From Georgenia subflava (GTDB taxonomy: Bacteria > Actinomycetota > Actinomycetes > Actinomycetales > Actinomycetaceae), in the NCBI RefSeq assembly GCF_009193155.1, contig NZ_VUKD01000004.1:496001-560000 (forward strand): 64,000 nucleotides of DNA, given 5' to 3'. The position numbers and the translations under genes are program-made. This document shows positions 7,912-61,553 of the stretch, piece after piece; position 1 is the first letter of the stretch, and every line of letters starts with the position of its first letter. The notes below the pieces were generated by a model. It was not told where the DNA came from. It made no database searches and worked only from the letters and a program-made list of their open reading frames with translations.

Positions 7912-8769
7912 CTAGCCGCGCCGGGTCACCGCCTCCCGGCGGGCCGCCAGCAGAGCGAGCCCGGCGAGGACGACGGCGGACCCGAGCACCCAGGTCAGGT
8001 GCACCCAGGTCGCACCCGTGGCTGCCCCGGTCCAGGCCTCGACGTCGCCGTCGGGCATGACCACCCGGTAGGCGAGCTGGCCGAAGTGGAACGTCGGCAG
8101 GAACTGCGCGACGTCCCGCAGGACCTGCGGCAGCTCGCCGAGCGGGACGAAGAACCCGGACGCGAAGGCGAGCGGCAGGAAGATCAGGTTGGCGATCACC
8201 GCCGCCGTGCGGGGTCGCGCCAGGAACGCGATCGCGAACCCGAGCGTGCTGAAGATCAGCAGACCGGCGACCATCGTCGCGCCGAGCGCGAGCCAGGACC
8301 CCGGCGGCAGGCTCACCCCGCCGGCGGTGGCCGCCAGGGCGAACATCACCGCCACGATCAGGACGGCGAGCAGCACCCCGTTCGCCACCTTGCCGACCAG
8401 GTGCACCCAGGTGGGGAACGGCGTCGCCCCCAGGGTGCGGGTCCACCCGCGACCGCGCTCCTTGGCGAGGTTGTCGCCGAAGGTGAAGATCGCGAGCGAG
8501 ACGACGCCGTAGGCGGACATCGACACCAGCATCGCCAGACCGACGCGGGTGCCGCCGTCGAGGACGGACGAGGCGTTGGGCAGGCCGAACATCGCGTAGA
8601 GCAGCACGGGAACCGCGATGGCGCCGACGGCGAAGTCCGCGGTGCGGAAGCTCGACCGGATCTCGGTCCACACGCTCACGGCGAGCAGACCCAGCCGGCC
8701 CCCGTTCGGCGTCGGCCGCCGACGTGGGGCGCTGCGGGTCGGGGCGGGTGTCGTGGCACGGACGCTCAT
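7912..8769 (-). CDS. ABC-2 type transporter permease
   Basis: 285-aa integral membrane subunit. After a 35-residue hydrophilic N-terminus there are about six hydrophobic segments (DFAVGAIAVPVLLYAMFG, VSMSAYGVVSLAIF, LLAVLIVAVMFALAA, MVAGLLIFSTLGFAIAF, ANLIFLPLAFASGFFVPLG, LGSAVVLAGLALLAA). The GFFVPLGELP motif is typical of ABC-2 exporters of the daunorubicin/YvfS type. The start overlaps the ATPase stop (TGATG), so translation is coupled. With the ATPase it probably forms an exporter controlled by the two-component system at 12.2-13.9 kb. Confidence 0.9.
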   Translation of the reverse strand: MSVRATTPAPTRSAPRRRPTPNGGRLGLLAVSVWTEIRSSFRTADFAVGAIAVPVLLYAMFGLPNASSVLDGGTRVGLAMLVSMSAYGVVSLAIFTFGDNLAKERGRGWTRTLGATPFPTWVHLVGKVANGVLLAVLIVAVMFALAATAGGVSLPPGSWLALGATMVAGLLIFSTLGFAIAFLARPRTAAVIANLIFLPLAFASGFFVPLGELPQVLRDVAQFLPTFHFGQLAYRVVMPDGDVEAWTGAATGATWVHLTWVLGSAVVLAGLALLAARREAVTRRG

Positions 8770-9491
8770 CAGTCGTCTCCTTCGTCGAAGGCGGAGGATC
8801 GCTCCGCGGTGAGGGCGAGGAAGACCTCCTCGAGGTCGTCGTCGCCTTGGTGTGTCAGCTCGTCCGCCGTGGTGTCGGCGACCAGCCGGCCGGCCGAGAC
8901 CACCAGCACCCGGTCCGCGACGGCCGCGGCCTCGGCGAGGTCGTGGGTGGCGAACAGGACCGTCGCGCCGTCCTCCACGCTGGCGCGCGCCTGGTCCCAG
9001 AAGGACCGGCGGGAGGCGACGTCCATCGCGGCGGTGGGCTCGTCCAGGAGCAGCACCTCCGGGGCGCCGACCAGGGCGAGGGCCAGCAGCAGACGCTGCC
9101 GCTCGCCGCCGGACAGGTTCGTCACCGTCCGGGCGGCGCGCTTGGTCAGCGACGTGCGGGCGAGCACGTCGTCGACCTCCAGCGCCTGGGGATAGCTGCG
9201 CCCGACGAGGCGGACCAGCTCACGCACGGTCACCTGCTCCGGCAGCCCGGCCGACTGCAGCATCGCGCCGACCCGGCCGCGCACCCGGCCGGGTGCGTGC
9301 CCGAGCACCTCGACCGTGCCCGCGGTGGGGCGGACCAGGCCGAGCAGCAGCTCGAAGGCGGTGGACTTGCCCGCGCCGTTGGGACCGAGCACGGCGACGA
9401 TCTCGCCGCGTTCGACCGCCAGGTCCAGCCCGTCCAGGGCCTCGACGCCGGGGTAGCTCTTGCGCACGCCGCGCATCTCAAGAACGGTCAT
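8769..9491 (-). CDS. ABC transporter ATP-binding protein
   Basis: 240-aa ABC ATPase: Walker A GPNGAGKS, signature LSGGERQR, Walker B VLLLDEPT, and H-loop ATHDLAEA. It belongs to the drug/bacitracin/lantibiotic-type exporter ATPases. Start ATG 9491 follows a GGAAGGAGAA RBS; much longer upstream frame is non-coding. It is the first gene of a two-gene operon with the permease. A 28-bp element about 77 bp upstream (9567-9594) recurs upstream of the sensor kinase gene, suggesting the operon is a target of that kinase/regulator pair. Confidence 0.92.
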   Translation of the reverse strand: MTVLEMRGVRKSYPGVEALDGLDLAVERGEIVAVLGPNGAGKSTAFELLLGLVRPTAGTVEVLGHAPGRVRGRVGAMLQSAGLPEQVTVRELVRLVGRSYPQALEVDDVLARTSLTKRAARTVTNLSGGERQRLLLALALVGAPEVLLLDEPTAAMDVASRRSFWDQARASVEDGATVLFATHDLAEAAAVADRVLVVSAGRLVADTTADELTHQGDDDLEEVFLALTAERSSAFDEGDD

Positions 9492-9566
9492 GATGGTTCT
9501 CCTTCCCGTCGACACCAACGCTAGGAATCGCGCGGTGACGGCGGATGTGCCGGTCGGCACCAGTTG

Positions 9567-9594
9567 GACCCATGACCAATGGCAGGTCCGTCGG
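9567..9594 (+). promoter_or_regulatory. Candidate operator, copy 1 of a 28-bp identical pair
   Basis: Begins GACCCATGACCAATGG and ends GGTCCGTCGG; all 28 bases recur at 12124-12151. Internal dyads: CCAT-GACCA-ATGG and GACC...GGTC. It lies upstream of the ABC-transporter operon, in inverted orientation relative to that gene, just above the expected -35 region. Confidence 0.65.
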
Positions 9595-9769
9595 CGCCGT
9601 CCGGACACGGGCCCCGCGACCCTCGTCGCGATTGCGACTGCCGGTCCGCGGTGGGAGACTCGCCGTGATCCGGGCGCCCCGACTGCTGGGCGCGGCGGAG
9701 TCTGCACATCTCCTGGCCGCCGAGGTCGTCGGTCGACGCCCGGCCGGCCCTTCGGGACCGTTCCATCAC

Positions 9770-9821
9770 GGGGTCGAGGACGACCCGGGAGACGAGGGGT
9801 CAAGGACGACCCCGGAGACGA
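9770..9821. repeat. 26-bp tandem duplication
   Basis: Two adjacent 26-bp units (9770-9795, 9796-9821), both beginning GGGGTC and containing AAGGACGAC or GAGGACGAC; they differ at two positions. Intergenic, about 110 bp upstream of the PQQ-type dehydrogenase. Confidence 0.85.
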
Positions 9822-9933
9822 CAACTGAACAGTCATCGCGGTGCGCACCCGAGCAACGCGATCGCTGTGCGCACGGCGCCTCGCGCCGAGCCGCACACGC
9901 ATGACACGCACCTGCAAGGTTCCGGAGGAACCG

Positions 9934-11991
9934 ATGCGCAGATCGACGATCGTGACGTCTTCTTCATTCACGCTCGCCCTCGTGGCGAGCGCACTCGTCC
10001 TGGGGCCCGCGCACTCCCAAGAGGCTCCGCCGCCCCCGCAAGAGTCGGTCCCGGCAGAGGACGACATGCCCGGCGACCGCCACTGGATCCGGCCCGAGGA
10101 CCTGCCGGCGCCGGTCAACGAGGGCGACCCGGAGGCGCCCGACTTCGAGAACAACCCCGTGCTGGTCGACGCACCGGCGGGGAGGATGCCGGATGTGCCC
10201 GATGGCTTCGAGGTCGAGGTGTTCGCCAGCGGCTTCACCCAGCCCCGCGTCATGCGGACCGCCCCGAACGGCGACATCTTCCTGGCGGAGAGCGGGACCG
10301 GACGCGTCCTGACCTTCGACGCCGACGCGGCCCTGCCGGCGGAGCCCGAGGTCTTTGCCGAGGGGCTGGACCGGCCCTTCGGTATCGCCTTCTACCCGGT
10401 CAGCGAACCGCGGTACGTCTACGTGGCGGCGGCCGACCGGGTCGTGCGTTACCCGTACGACGACGGCGACCGCGAGGCGACGGGCCCGGGCGAGGTCATC
10501 ATCTCGAACATCCCCACCGAGCGGCACTGGACGCGCGACCTGGCGGTATCCCCGGACGGGGAGCACCTCTTCGTCTCGATCGGCTCGGCCTCCAACGTCG
10601 CCGGTGCCATGTCGGAGACGCCGCCGGGAGGGATCGAGGCCTGGGAAGCGACGCACGGGCTCGGCGCCGCCTGGGACGACGAGACGAACCGGGCCGTCGT
10701 GCGCGTGTTCGACCCCGAGGGTCTGAACGTGCGCAACTATGCGACGGGCCTGCGCAACTGCTCCGGCATGACGATCCAGCCGGAGACCGACCAGCTCTGG
10801 TGCACGGTCAACGAGCGTGACCACCTCGGCGCCGACGTCGTGCCCGACATGCTGACCACCGTGGAGGGTGGGGCGTTCTACGGCTGGCCCTGGTACTACG
10901 CCGGGGGCTTCGAGGACCCGGCCCACGCCGGTGAGCGTCCGGACCTCGCGGACCAGGTCACCGCGCCCGACGTGCTGATCCAGGCGCACTCGTCCACCAT
11001 GCAGCTTCTCTTCTACGACGCTCAGGCGTTCCCGGCCGAGTACCACGGCGACGCGTTCGCCACGCTCCGCGGCTCCTGGAACCGCGAGCACAGGACCGGG
11101 TACAAGGTGGTCCGCGCCATCATGGAGGACGGTGTGGCCACCGGTGAGTACGTGGACTTCATGACCGGTTTCGTTCTGGACGCGGAAAGGGTCTGGGGCC
11201 GCCCCGTCGGCATCACGCTCACCCACGACGGCGCTCTGCTCGTCGGCGACGACGCCAACGGCACCATCTTCCGGGTCTCCGCGACCGAGCCGGAAGCACC
11301 GGAGGAGCCGCCGTACGGGTTCTTCCTCAACGATGCGTGGGACACCACGGCGAACCATGTGTTCATGTACGGCCGGTTCGCTGACGAGGTCCTCATCGGT
11401 GACTGGGACGGTGACGGCACGGACTCCATCACGGTCCGGCGCGGGAACACGTACTACGTCAACAACACTCTCGGCGGCGGGGAGGCCGAGCACGTGTTCG
11501 TCTACGGCCGCCCCGACGACACGGTCCTCGTGGGCGACTGGGACGGCGACGGCGTGGACACGCTCGCGGTTCGTCGCGGCGCCGAGTACCACGTGAAGAA
11601 CGACCTGGCGGGCGGTCCCGCCGACCAGGTGGTGGTCTACGGCCGCTCCGGCGACCAGGTGGTCGTGGGCGACTGGGACGGTGACGAGCTGGACACCTTC
11701 GCGGTGCGTCGTGGTGCGACGTACTTCGTCAAGAACACCATCGCCGCCGGTGAGGCCGACCAGGTCGTGGTCTACGGCCGGGCCGGTGACATCACCCTCG
11801 CCGGTGACTGGGACGGCGACGGCGACGACACCTTCGCGGTGCGTCGTGGTGCGACGTACTACGTGAAGAACACGATCGCTCCGGGAGAGGCGGACATCGT
11901 GCTCGTCTACGGCCGCGCCGGTGACGAGATCTACGTCGGTGACTGGAACGGTGACGGCGAGGACACCCTCGGCGTTCGCCGCGCACCCTGA
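9934..11991 (+). CDS. Secreted PQQ-type sugar dehydrogenase with five C-terminal repeats
   Basis: 685-aa exported protein. A signal peptide precedes a cut near AHSQEA. Residues about 85-460 form a six-bladed beta-propeller of the soluble aldose sugar dehydrogenase/glucose-sorbosone (PQQ) family (FASGFTQPRVMRTAPNGDIF, FPFGIAF-like LDRPFGIAFYP, NVRNYATGLRNCSGM, GAFYGWPWYYAGG, RPVGITLTHDGALLVGDD). Residues about 475-685 are five 45-residue repeats (YGR..D...GDWDGDG.DT..VRRG..Y.VKNT) with Ca-binding-like DxDGDG loops, probably a cell-surface or carbohydrate-binding region. ATG 9934 follows a strong GGAGGAA RBS. It is flanked by, but not obviously co-transcribed with, the ABC and two-component genes. 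Confidence 0.85.
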   Translation: MRRSTIVTSSSFTLALVASALVLGPAHSQEAPPPPQESVPAEDDMPGDRHWIRPEDLPAPVNEGDPEAPDFENNPVLVDAPAGRMPDVPDGFEVEVFASGFTQPRVMRTAPNGDIFLAESGTGRVLTFDADAALPAEPEVFAEGLDRPFGIAFYPVSEPRYVYVAAADRVVRYPYDDGDREATGPGEVIISNIPTERHWTRDLAVSPDGEHLFVSIGSASNVAGAMSETPPGGIEAWEATHGLGAAWDDETNRAVVRVFDPEGLNVRNYATGLRNCSGMTIQPETDQLWCTVNERDHLGADVVPDMLTTVEGGAFYGWPWYYAGGFEDPAHAGERPDLADQVTAPDVLIQAHSSTMQLLFYDAQAFPAEYHGDAFATLRGSWNREHRTGYKVVRAIMEDGVATGEYVDFMTGFVLDAERVWGRPVGITLTHDGALLVGDDANGTIFRVSATEPEAPEEPPYGFFLNDAWDTTANHVFMYGRFADEVLIGDWDGDGTDSITVRRGNTYYVNNTLGGGEAEHVFVYGRPDDTVLVGDWDGDGVDTLAVRRGAEYHVKNDLAGGPADQVVVYGRSGDQVVVGDWDGDELDTFAVRRGATYFVKNTIAAGEADQVVVYGRAGDITLAGDWDGDGDDTFAVRRGATYYVKNTIAPGEADIVLVYGRAGDEIYVGDWNGDGEDTLGVRRAP
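11359..11991 (+). repeat. 135-bp coding repeats (45-residue FG-GAP/VCBS-like units)
   Basis: Five in-frame units starting near 11359, 11494, 11629, 11764 and 11899, the last truncated. Each encodes a YGR motif, a GDWDGDG loop and VRRG..Y. Units 3-5 are most alike at the DNA level, implying recent duplication or gene conversion. Confidence 0.9.
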
Positions 11992-12004
11992 TCCGACATC
12001 CGAC

Positions 12005-12042
12005 GGTGCGGTGCCCGACCGGGAGGAGGCGGGCACCGCACC
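12005..12042 (+). terminator. Strong hairpin terminator after the PQQ-type dehydrogenase
   Basis: Perfect 13-bp arms GGTGCGGTGCCCG (12005-12017) and CGGGCACCGCACC (12030-12042) with a 12-nt loop, 14 bp past the stop codon. No U-tract follows. Confidence 0.75.
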
Positions 12043-12123
12043 ACCAGCAGAGCAGAACCGGCGGGGCTCGCGTCCGAGGGCGCGGGCCCCGCCGCGCTGC
12101 GCGCCTCCGCCAGCCGGCGCGTC

Positions 12124-12151
12124 GACCCATGACCAATGGCAGGTCCGTCGG
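12124..12151 (+). promoter_or_regulatory. Candidate operator, copy 2 of a 28-bp identical pair
   Basis: Same 28 bases as 9567-9594. It ends 26 bp before the sensor-kinase start and overlaps the place where the -35 should be; a TACAGT -10-like hexamer follows at 12166-12171, giving a leaderless or very short leader. This fits autoregulation by the encoded NarL-type regulator. Confidence 0.65.
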
Positions 12152-12177
12152 ACCCGGTGCGCTCGTACAGTTCAGGC

Positions 12178-13302
12178 ATGGCGAGTCGCGCGCAGGAGCG
12201 GCTGAGTGCCGGGGCGGGGCTGGCCGCCGTCCTGGTCGTCGGCCTCTCCGTCCTCCTCTACGGCGTCCCGGTCGGTGACTCCGCGGCCGCCGTCGCGCTG
12301 TGGTGGGTCGGGTTCGCCGTCTACGTGCTGACCTTCGCCGCCGACTCGGAGATCTTCGGCCTCCGCACGCCCTGGCCGGACGCCGTCACGGTCGCCGTCC
12401 TCACGGTCAGCGGCCTGACGCTCTGGCTGCTCGCCCCGCACCTGGGCTGGACGGCGCTCCTCTTCGTCGTCACCACTGCCGCTGCGGCGTACGTCCTCGT
12501 GCCCCGCGTGGTCGGCGCCCTCGTCGTGCTGCAGACGGTGGCGGTCGCGGTCGGTGGGGCGATGGCGGGCCTCACCACCGACAACGTCGTCTTCGCCACG
12601 CTCGCCTACCTCGCGTTCCAGGTCTTCGCCGCCCTGGTCGTGGTCGGCACCCGGCGCGAGGCGGAGGCCCGCGCCGCGCTCGCCGTCGCCCATGCCGACC
12701 TACGCGCGGCGACGGCCCTGCTGGCCACGTCCAGCCGCAACGACGAGCGGGTACGGATCGCCCGCGACCTGCACGACGTGGTCGGCCACCAGCTCACCGC
12801 GCTGGCCCTCGAGCTGGAGGTCGCCGCCCACCGCGCGACCGGCGACGGCGCGGAGCACGTCGCCCGGGCACGCGGGATCGCGAAGGACCTGCTCGCCGAC
12901 GTGCGCGCGACCGTCGGGGAGCTGCGCGACGCCCCCGCCGGCCTGGAACCAACGCTGCGCGGCATCGTCGAGCACGTCCCGGGTCTCGCCGTCGAGCTCG
13001 AGGTCGACGAGCGGCGGCCGCTCGACGACGCCGCCACGATCGCCGTCGTGCGCTGCGTCCAGGAGATCGTCACCAACACCGTCCGGCACGCCGGTGCCGC
13101 GCACCTGCAGGTGGCCGTGGTCTCCGACGACGACGGCCTGCGGCTACGGGCGCACGACGACGGCGTCGGCGTGCGCGCCGTCGAGCCCGGCAACGGTCTG
13201 ACCGGCATGGCGGAGCGGTTCGAGGAGCTCGGCGGCGAGCTGTCGCTCGACTCCGTCCCCGGCAGGGGCTTCACCGTGAGGGCGCGGGTGCCCGCGCGAT
13301 GA
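12178..13302 (+). CDS. Sensor histidine kinase (HisKA_3, NarL-type partner)
   Basis: 374-aa membrane kinase. The N-terminal part (about 12-155) has five or six hydrophobic segments with short loops and no extracytoplasmic domain, as in intramembrane-sensing kinases. The dimerisation/phosphoacceptor motif [16 protein letters not shown] has His199. A C-terminal HATPase region ([34 protein letters not shown]) follows. ATG 12178 is six bases after a TACAGT hexamer. It overlaps the response regulator by ATGA. The shared upstream operator points to the ABC operon at 7.9-9.5 kb as a target, similar in logic to LiaSR- or DesKR-type envelope systems. Confidence 0.92.
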
Positions 13303-13946
13303 GGGTGGCCATCGTCGACGACCAGACCCTGGTGCGCCAGGGCATCCGCAGTCTGCTCGCGCTCAGCGACGAGATCGAGGTGGTGGGGGAGGGCGAGGAC
13401 GGCGACGACGCCCTGCGGCTGCTCGCCGGCAACGATGTCGACGTGCTGCTGCTGGACCTGCGGATGCCGCGCCGGGACGGGATCGCCACTCTCGAGGCGC
13501 TCGCCGAGCGGGGGTCGAGCGTGCCGGTGCTGGTGCTGACCACCTTCGACGACGACGAGCTGGTCCTCGGTGCACTGCGGGCCGGCGCCAGGGGGTACCT
13601 GCTCAAGGACGTGACGCTCGAGCAGCTGGTCGGTGCGATCCGCACCCTGGCCGGCGGTGGCACGCTGCTCCAGCCTGGGCTGACGGAGCGGCTCTTTCGG
13701 GCGGTGTCGCAGAGGCCGGGCACGGTGACGGGGTTCGACCGGCCGGAGCCGCTCACCGCGCGCGAGCTCGATGTGCTGCGGCTCGCGGCGTCCGGGTACT
13801 CCAACGGCGAGATCGCCGCCGCCCTGCACCTGGCGCCCGGGACGGTGAAGAACCACCTCTCCAGCGTCTTCCTCAAACTCGGCGTGCGGGACCGCACGCG
13901 GGCGGTGCTGCGGGCGCTCGACCTCGGGATCCTCGAGGGGAGCTGA
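13299..13946 (+). CDS. Response regulator, NarL/FixJ (LuxR-HTH) family
   Basis: 215-aa two-domain regulator. The receiver domain (1-120) has acidic pocket D7/D8, phospho-acceptor D53 (LLLDLRMP), T81-type Thr (VLTTFDDD) and Lys (GYLLKD). The C-terminal LuxR HTH ([20 protein letters not shown]...[13 protein letters not shown]) spans about 150-210. The start overlaps the kinase stop (ATGA). Predicted to bind the 28-bp element in front of its own operon and of the ABC operon. Confidence 0.94.
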
Positions 13947-13987: not shown

Positions 13988-14209
13988 ATGAGGACTTTAT
14001 ACCTGCGTAACGTGCCGGACGAGGTCCTCGCCCGGCTGGAGTCGCTGGCGAAGCGGGAGCAGATGTCCGTCTCCGCATTCGCGGTCCGCGAGCTCAGCGC
14101 CGCCAGTCGACGGGCCGACAACGCCCGTCTGCTCGCAGAGCTTCCGGTCCTCGAGCTGTCGACGACCGACGTGCTCGCAGCGATCGACGAGGGCCGAGCA
14201 GGGCGGTGA
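13988..14209 (+). CDS. vapB: RHH-type antitoxin (FitA/VapB-like)
   Basis: 73-aa antitoxin. The N-terminus [31 protein letters not shown] is a ribbon-helix-helix DNA-binding fold of the FitA/VapB class. The C-terminal tail ([23 protein letters not shown]) should wrap around and inhibit the PIN toxin. ATG 13988 was chosen because it starts the RHH strand. It overlaps the toxin start by GTGA. It lies 41 bp after the response regulator stop but has its own promoter-like repeats. Confidence 0.85.
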
Positions 14210-14589
14210 TCGTTCTCGACTCCTCTGCAGCCATCAAGGCGCTCGCCGGTGACGACGACGCGCGGCACGCGATCCGGTCCGCGCCCGTCTTCGCCCCGCA
14301 CCTCATCGACACGGAGGTCACCAGCGCGCTGCGCGGCCTGGTCCTCGGGCGCAAGATCTCGGCAACCGAGGCGGAAGCCATGATGGACACCTGGCCCCGG
14401 CTCGGGGTGGTGCGGTTCGCGGCGCACCCGCTGATGCGGCGGATCTGGGAGCTGCGAGACAACCTCACGGCGTACGACGCCACGTACGTCGCCCTTGCCG
14501 AAGAGCTCGGCTGCCTGCTCCTCACGGCGGACGCGCGGATACCCGCAGCGCCCGGGGTGCGTTGCGCGGTCACCGTGCTGCGCGCGTAG
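14206..14589 (+). CDS. vapC: PIN-domain toxin (VapC-like ribonuclease)
   Basis: 127-aa PIN domain with the full acidic set: D5 (VLDSSA), E37 (IDTEV), D91 ([12 protein letters not shown]) and D109 (LTADARI). These coordinate Mg/Mn for RNA cleavage, commonly of tRNA or rRNA in VapC families. Start is GTG 14206, overlapping the antitoxin stop, so translation is coupled. All catalytic residues are present, so it should be active when free of antitoxin. Confidence 0.9.
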
Positions 14590-20439: not shown

Positions 20440-20598
20440 ATGAGCTACTACAGCGACACCACCCACCACGTCCTGCACCAGATCCACGAGAGCGAGCTCG
20501 CCCGGCGTACCGGCGAGATCCGGATGCTCGCCGAGCTGCGCGGCACCGACCGCAGGTCCCGCCGTCGCGCACGCTCCGCCAGGGAGAACCTCGCGTGA
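20440..20598 (+). CDS. 52-aa basic small protein
   Basis: Short protein MSYYSDTTHHVLHQIHESEL... with an Arg-rich C-terminus (DRRSRRRARSARENLA). The His/Glu-rich amphipathic N-terminal helix and basic tail suggest a small nucleic-acid- or protein-binding factor; similar small proteins are common in actinobacteria, but no function is known. It has good actinobacterial codon bias. The stop TGA (20596-20598) falls in the first unit of the palindrome array that fills the gap to the LAL regulator, so the two genes may be co-transcribed. Confidence 0.65.
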   Translation: MSYYSDTTHHVLHQIHESELARRTGEIRMLAELRGTDRRSRRRARSARENLA

Positions 20599-20739
20599 CC
20601 CGGTGACGTCACCGGCGCGTGTCCCGGTGAGGTCACTGGTGCGTGCCCGGTGAGGTCACCGGTGCGTGCCCGGTGAGGCCACCGGTGCGTGCCCGGTGAG
20701 GCCACCGGTGCGTGTCCCGGTGACGTCACCCCTGCGTGG
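20595..20739 (+). repeat. Six-unit 23/24-bp array of GGTGANNTCACC-type palindromes
   Basis: Units start near 20599, 20623, 20646, 20669, 20692 and 20716. Each begins CCCGGTGA and holds a 12-bp dyad: GGTGACGTCACC (first; last unit imperfect at one end), GGTGAGGTCACT, GGTGAGGTCACC, or GGTGAGGCCACC twice. Units are joined by GCGTG or GCGTGT. The array fills the whole gap between the 52-aa gene stop and the LAL regulator start (20744). Confidence 0.95.
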
Positions 20740-61400: not shown

Positions 61401-61426
61401 CGCCGCCCTCCCGCAGGAGGGCGGCG
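61401..61426 (-). terminator. Perfect 11-bp hairpin between GH3 and GNAT genes
   Basis: CGCCGCCCTCC (61401-61411), tetraloop CGCA, GGAGGGCGGCG (61416-61426). It should end leftward GH3 transcripts before the GNAT gene; no U-tract. Confidence 0.65.
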
Positions 61427-61428
61427 CG

Positions 61429-61553
61429 CCGTGCTGTGCGCGTCCACCTAGGACGGCGGACTGTGCTGTGCGGGTCCGCCTAGGGGCGGTCCGTGCTGTG
61501 CGGGCCCGCCGTAGGACGGCGGACCGTGCTGTGCGGGCCCGCTCCCTCGCCTA
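61429..61553. repeat. 30-33-bp repeats across the GH3 stop codon
   Basis: Four units marked by GTGCTGTGCG at 61431, 61463, 61493 and 61526. Read on the minus strand, the unit next to the gene begins with the GH3 stop TAG (61553-61551), and the following units begin TAC, TAG and TAG in the equivalent place, each followed by GGACC/GGGCC and CGCACAGCAC. Confidence 0.9.

Follow-up and report, generated by a model that had tools for sequence, protein, structure and literature searches.

Two copies of one element at an exporter/kinase locus

A stretch of 64,000 nucleotides from the Georgenia subflava genome (GCF_009193155.1, contig NZ_VUKD01000004.1, positions 496,001 to 560,000), referred to here as the window, carries the same 28 bases in front of two operons, one coding for an ABC exporter and the other for a sensor kinase and a response regulator. 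The question raised by this locus is what the element is and how it came to stand in two places.

The exporter operon is read leftward and contains the genes for an ABC transporter ATPase (8769-9491, minus strand; ABC_tran) and an ABC-2 permease (7912-8769, minus strand; ABC2_membrane_3 and ABC2_membrane); the best NCBIfam matches of the exporter are DrrA (drrA, for the ATPase) and DrrB, both below cut-off. The rightward operon, on the plus strand, codes for a sensor histidine kinase (12178-13302; HisKA_3 and HATPase_c, the N-terminal half being hydrophobic by eye) and a NarL-type response regulator (13299-13946; Response_reg and GerE), whose gene overlaps the kinase stop codon (ATGA). The two operons are divergent, but approximately 2.5 kb apart, and the gene for a glucose/sorbosone dehydrogenase-like protein (GSDH; 9934-11991, plus strand), with a start resembling a signal peptide by eye and 45-residue repeats at the C-terminus, is located between them. 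A toxin-antitoxin-like pair follows right after the regulator gene: a ribbon-helix-helix protein (13988-14209; FitA-like, below cut-off) overlapping a PIN-domain protein (14206-14589).

The initial annotation had described the 28 bases as identical at 9567-9594 and 12124-12151, with unrelated flanks. The two copies, both on the plus strand and in the same orientation, were found to match with zero mismatches, and the flanking bases agreed at chance level (9/30 identical to the left and 6/30 to the right, where 0.30 per base is expected). As had been stated, the left copy precedes the exporter operon, which is read leftward from an ATPase start at 9491, and the right copy lies 26 bases before the kinase start, for which the fitting codon is the ATG at 12178. 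Because the two copies are oriented alike, the left one points away from the exporter that it precedes.

Within the window the 28-mer had two matches at up to three mismatches, against none in 100 dinucleotide shuffles. A search for further copies, which the annotation had proposed, was run over the whole assembly (98.74% complete) and gave exactly two copies in 4,322,787 bases, again at up to three mismatches, while the reversed control pattern gave 0. A dispersed genomic repeat with no regulatory role is ruled out for this assembly by that count, and as an explanation it can practically be dismissed. The window holds other repeats: a 23-bp unit with GGTGAGGTCACC in it occurs about six times at 20593-20738, a possible multi-site operator array; a 24-bp unit stands four times in tandem, nearly without mismatch (97% matches), at 1154-1251; and a GC-rich 32-bp unit is repeated in tandem about 3.9 times at 61418-61542.

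A predicted two-box operator conserved among relatives

Comparison of orthologous promoters showed that the element is kept between the exporter and kinase operons of relatives. The CCAT-N5-ATGG and GACC...GGTC dyads previously pointed out in the 28-mer are present as letters, and were rejected as the signal, because relatives conserve TGAC-N4-GGCA instead of them. What the relatives conserve is a pair of inverted boxes, box A with TGCC-N4-GTCA (or GGCA) and box B with TGAC-N4-GGCA. In the window, box A (TGCCGGTCGGCA) is found at 9548-9559 (plus strand), 24 nt from a -10-like hexamer of the exporter operon. The exporter-side box B (TGACCAATGGCA) lies 13 bp from it at 9573-9584 (plus strand), and the kinase-side box B is located at 12130-12141 (plus strand), 24 nt before a -10-like hexamer of the kinase operon. 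The predicted operator thus places the 28-mer as one half, box B with its flanks, of a two-box site whose other half is the box A at 9548-9559. No counterpart of box A within two mismatches was found on the kinase side (12001-12190).

A full operator was defined as an exact box B with a box A at one mismatch or fewer and a gap of 13 or 23 bp. It was present in 50/61 loci of the regulator family and in 42/53 of those not chosen by motif, the latter being the fairer count because eight loci had been picked by motif; many family loci are close relatives, and neither count is one of independent observations. In paralogous-regulator loci it occurred in 0/19, these control loci being about 3.6 kb each, a length that may leave some kinase promoters outside. 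Among the matches listed, 3/68 other related regulator loci had the operator, in L085 and L137 near the kinase start and in L130 more than 2 kb away.

An exact box B was located upstream of the kinase in 57/63 loci. The six without one are L048, L077, L120, L154, L081 and L217, the kinase of the last two not having been located by the script; L077 is a co-directional operon with its operator before the ATPase gene. The strict operator is missing in 11/61 family loci. Among these are L217, L214 with its doubled box B and weaker box A, and four loci in which the boxes stand further apart (L226, L227, L230 and L081). Box B is present with box A at two mismatches in L235, L237 and L238, the region is lost in L048, and L120 has no exact box. 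The exporter/kinase locus of L048 (genome G005) seems broken: the ATPase gene and the operator were not found there, and the permease match directly adjoins that of the kinase.

In loci where both boxes are exact, A and B are separated by 13 bp in 43 cases, by 22 bp in three (L226, L227 and L230) and by 33 bp in one (L081). These increments lie close to one turn of the DNA helix.

The predicted operator follows the encoded regulator

When 394 genomes from the class were searched with the strict motif as the starting point, 10 genomes matched, and the control matched 0. All ten loci (10/10) lie beside this kinase/regulator pair. In nine, the ATPase gene was present in the 3-kb stretch, and in the tenth (G613) an NDH-2-like gene occupies the other side. 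A search for the regulator (E <= 1e-68) in 394 class genomes, apparently the same set, found it in 12, which include all 10 motif genomes; the chance of this overlap is about 3e-18 if genomes are assumed to be independent, which they are not.

The two regulator genomes outside the motif set are G000, the genome of the window, and G361. The strict motif misses the former, whose boxes differ from the strict pattern. For the latter, locus L255 carries the regulator and no box in the 3.6 kb examined; only the end of the kinase match falls within that stretch, so the kinase promoter probably lies outside it. When the window's own genome and relatives, 59 genomes in all, were searched, the regulator formed one group at 62-88% identity, separate from others at 52% or less.

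The element could instead be bound by a different transcription factor, the kinase/regulator operon being merely one of its targets, and the genome does encode seven other regulators that match at E <= 1e-40. Against this reading stand the confinement of the 10 motif genomes to the 12 regulator genomes, the 0/19 count in paralogous-regulator loci and the single exact full operator in the genome of the window, and we regard it as highly improbable. By this comparison, the predicted operator tracks the encoded regulator family, in support of the earlier proposal that the element is an operator of the encoded response regulator in an autoregulated kinase/regulator/exporter circuit.

Elsewhere in the genome, weak full-operator matches at up to three mismatches numbered 64 on the forward and 65 on the reverse strand, where the reversed control gave 59 and 52. 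Weak box B matches numbered 18 and 16, against 20 and 15. Both are at chance level, and for this reason no further regulon members are claimed.

Position of the boxes relative to predicted promoters

The positions of -10-like hexamers (TANNNT) were compared for 50 operators from 61 sources. A hexamer was found 24-25 nt outside box A in 49/50, the exception being L077, where the exporter and kinase genes are co-directional and a leftward promoter would not be expected. For box B, a hexamer was found 23-26 nt outside in 47/50. Three operators lack it: that of G613 and, in the window and in G048, the exporter-side one. Each of these loci has another box B before the kinase hexamer, at 24 nt in the window, 25 nt in G048 and 24 nt in G613.

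In the window, the predicted -10 of the exporter operon is TAGCGT (9518-9523, minus strand), at the position conserved in 49/50 operators, and that of the kinase operon is TACAGT (12166-12171, plus strand), which would imply a leaderless or nearly leaderless transcript. A sigma-70 scan of 9400-12300 gave no site; it says little, because the conserved -10s proposed here escape it too.

With the start sites inferred from these hexamers, each box would be centred near -42.5 of its own predicted start. A position of approximately -42.5 is the classic one for a LuxR-type activator. The regulator might also act as a repressor, one of its states shutting off both promoters, and a site next to the -35 is, taken by itself, compatible with repression. 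The boxes are nevertheless upstream of the predicted -35 and -10, near -42.5 of both predicted starts, and in the ChrSA/HrtBA system both divergent promoters are positively autoregulated, according to PMC6850329. Repression is for these reasons considered unlikely, and activation is the preferred reading.

The dehydrogenase gene as an insertion

In the closest orthologous loci (L045, L046, L047, L050 and L208), the exporter operon diverges directly from the kinase operon, a single copy of the element is present, and the distance from ATPase start to kinase start, as measured by the script, is 131-134 bp. If the segment between the 28-bp copies (9595-12123; 2,529 bp), which is missing from the same place in close relatives, is removed from the window, this distance becomes 133 bp by the same measure (129 nt between start codons), and the joined flanks align over their full length with L045, L046, L047 and L208. 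The alignment and the matching distance lead us to conclude that the window has an insertion of 2,529 bp and, with it, the 28-mer for a second time. As judged from these relatives, the dehydrogenase cassette is an insertion that splits a shared divergent promoter. The initial annotation was right to place a dehydrogenase gene between the operons; nothing points to membership of this gene in the circuit, and the 40 nt to the right of the exporter-side box B contain no TANNNT hexamer from which it might be transcribed as a regulated target.

The GSDH domain covers residues 102-376 of the dehydrogenase, and none of the non-self protein matches listed begins before residue 399. The 0.7-0.8 kb at the 3' end of the gene, which encodes the 45-residue repeat tail, has 83-90% DNA identity to nine other places in the genome, with weaker ones beyond. 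One of these matches (C4:139251-140057) extends past the dehydrogenase stop codon to approximately position 12095 of the window, which indicates that the 3' end of the cassette belongs to a gene family in the genome. This end includes a double GC-rich hairpin (12005-12094, plus strand; z -5.1), located 3' of the dehydrogenase gene and a possible terminator or insulator before the kinase promoter; a T-run terminator was sought after the gene, and none was found. The tail itself (11354-11991) is made of 135-bp (45-residue) repeats of a kind that occurs in many proteins of the genome, and many such tails are present in several relatives too. A 26-bp tandem pair was observed at 9770-9821, within the insert and upstream of the dehydrogenase gene.

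Pfam named no transposase in the insert: the dehydrogenase gene gave GSDH only, and six further ORFs gave nothing. The 80-base ends of the insert showed no convincing terminal inverted repeats (the best 14-mer at 86% and the best 18-mer at 78%), and 25/60 pairs matched in the inverted comparison. By these two tests the insert does not qualify as a transposon with target-site duplication.

Other loci with a displaced or doubled box B

A second split locus was found in Occultella glacieicola (G048, L075), where a sulfatase gene lies between the operons and the gap is 2,674 bp. In three genomes of the genus Occultella (L209-L211) the locus is unsplit, at 133-134 bp. The split loci of the window and of Occultella carry different genes, and unsplit relatives exist for both; we therefore take the two splits as independent. 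In G613, box B is doubled over 55 bp and the kinase promoter is displaced off the operator. No good box A was found at the usual spacing beside the second box B copy of the window, G048 or G613. One helical turn further out, the second box B of G048 has a box A candidate with two mismatches; its quality is like that of the weak boxes in L237 and L238, and a relic box A is therefore possible there.

These loci bear on whether the repeat is a mere scar, that is, 28 bp duplicated by chance on insertion and with no selected function, the exact kinase-side copy reflecting a recent event. The exact identity of the copies, their sharp borders and the placement of the insert precisely between them would all be expected of a scar. 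The extra box B recurs, however, at the displaced kinase promoters of G048 and G613, 24-25 nt from the hexamer and with no good box A, and the insert has the composition described above, with no Pfam transposase and no convincing inverted repeat at its ends. A scar is consequently judged to be quite improbable, and a retained kinase-side box B is preferred.

In G838 (L214), box B is duplicated in tandem over 32 bp with no insert, and box A is weaker; this locus may be an intermediate and show the first step towards a second copy. In L135, a Brevibacterium locus, box B stands by the kinase on its own, 25 nt from the hexamer. No exporter ATPase match lies beside the kinase in L243 (G613), L135 and L085; the divergent neighbour in L243 is an NDH-2-like oxidoreductase gene, and L135 and L085 have other neighbours. 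The operator may tolerate such partner swaps.

Model for the split operator

Very probably, the repeat carries box B of the predicted two-box operator of the encoded regulator, which was split by an insertion with duplication of its kinase-side half. In the ancestral layout proposed here, the divergent exporter and kinase/regulator operons would have shared one operator. The kinase would phosphorylate the regulator, dimers of the regulator would bind boxes A and B, and each bound box would aid the polymerase at its own promoter, A at that of the exporter and B at that of the kinase, a role suggested by their positions.

The dehydrogenase cassette would then have entered the shared promoter, the A+B pair remaining with the exporter. 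The second, exact 28-bp copy would provide box B with no box A, spaced from the kinase -10 as in unsplit loci, and insertion and duplication may have been one event or two. As the kinase has a box B of its own, both promoters could still answer the regulator after the split. The exact preservation of the exporter-side box B suggests that A and B act together there, and the kinase-side copy suggests that B alone can suffice at the kinase promoter.

The loci described above raise the possibility that fission of a divergent operator is a recurring route, in which a new gene breaks the promoter, the kinase-side box B is duplicated and kept, and the exporter retains the full pair; we hold the chances for and against this generalization to be even. 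If the route is real, one coupled cooperative circuit would be turned into two that are separately tuned, with a strong exporter response and a weaker autoregulation, and the loci would reveal, like experiments of nature, the half-site that each promoter requires. The split loci would likewise serve as natural mutants that predict the roles of the halves, A for the exporter and B for the kinase.

The operator can be written as a code, box A, 13 bp and box B with 24-25 nt to each -10, and variants longer by about one and two helical turns. A code of this precision makes members of this exporter-linked two-component system identifiable, and testable, from sequence in several actinobacterial families.

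Comparison with known systems

In a literature search of partial coverage, at the level of titles and the opening lines of abstracts, nothing on this system was returned for the motif TGACTTCCGGCA, for divergent NarL/ABC-2 loci, for DesK-type loci or for split divergent promoters; the titles listed for the motif concern goat liver, cholesterol and osteosarcoma. As far as this partial search shows, the operator family and the insertion-split divergent operator are new.

MadRS of Enterococcus faecalis gave the best NCBIfam match to the regulator, and both are NarL-like two-component regulators; MadRS is reported to be linked to antimicrobial-peptide and envelope-stress responses. Membership in MadR was rejected, the score being 158.9 bits against the curated cut-off of 300 for NF047785. 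In having a GerE-type regulator and a short box immediately before the predicted -35, the locus resembles LuxR/NarL-type activator sites. Unlike those sites as generally known, two inverted boxes here serve opposite promoters.

The ChrSA-HrtBA system of Corynebacterium glutamicum and C. diphtheriae responds to haem, and ChrA is a NarL-type regulator. In that system, chrSA and hrtBA are in opposite gene orientation (PMC3353115), and a single central ChrA site serves for the positive autoregulation of P-chrSA and of the divergent P-hrtBA (PMC6850329). The likeness lies in an ABC exporter operon from which a kinase/regulator operon diverges, as seen in the relatives of the window, and the difference in the use of one site for both promoters in ChrSA-HrtBA, whereas here there are two boxes, each at its own promoter. 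In the window, moreover, the shared region is split and has box B twice. The exporter matches the ABC-2 type. We would file the present locus neither as ChrSA/HrtBA nor as MadRS; its nearest known kind appears to be the autoregulated divergent locus of the ChrSA/HrtBA type.
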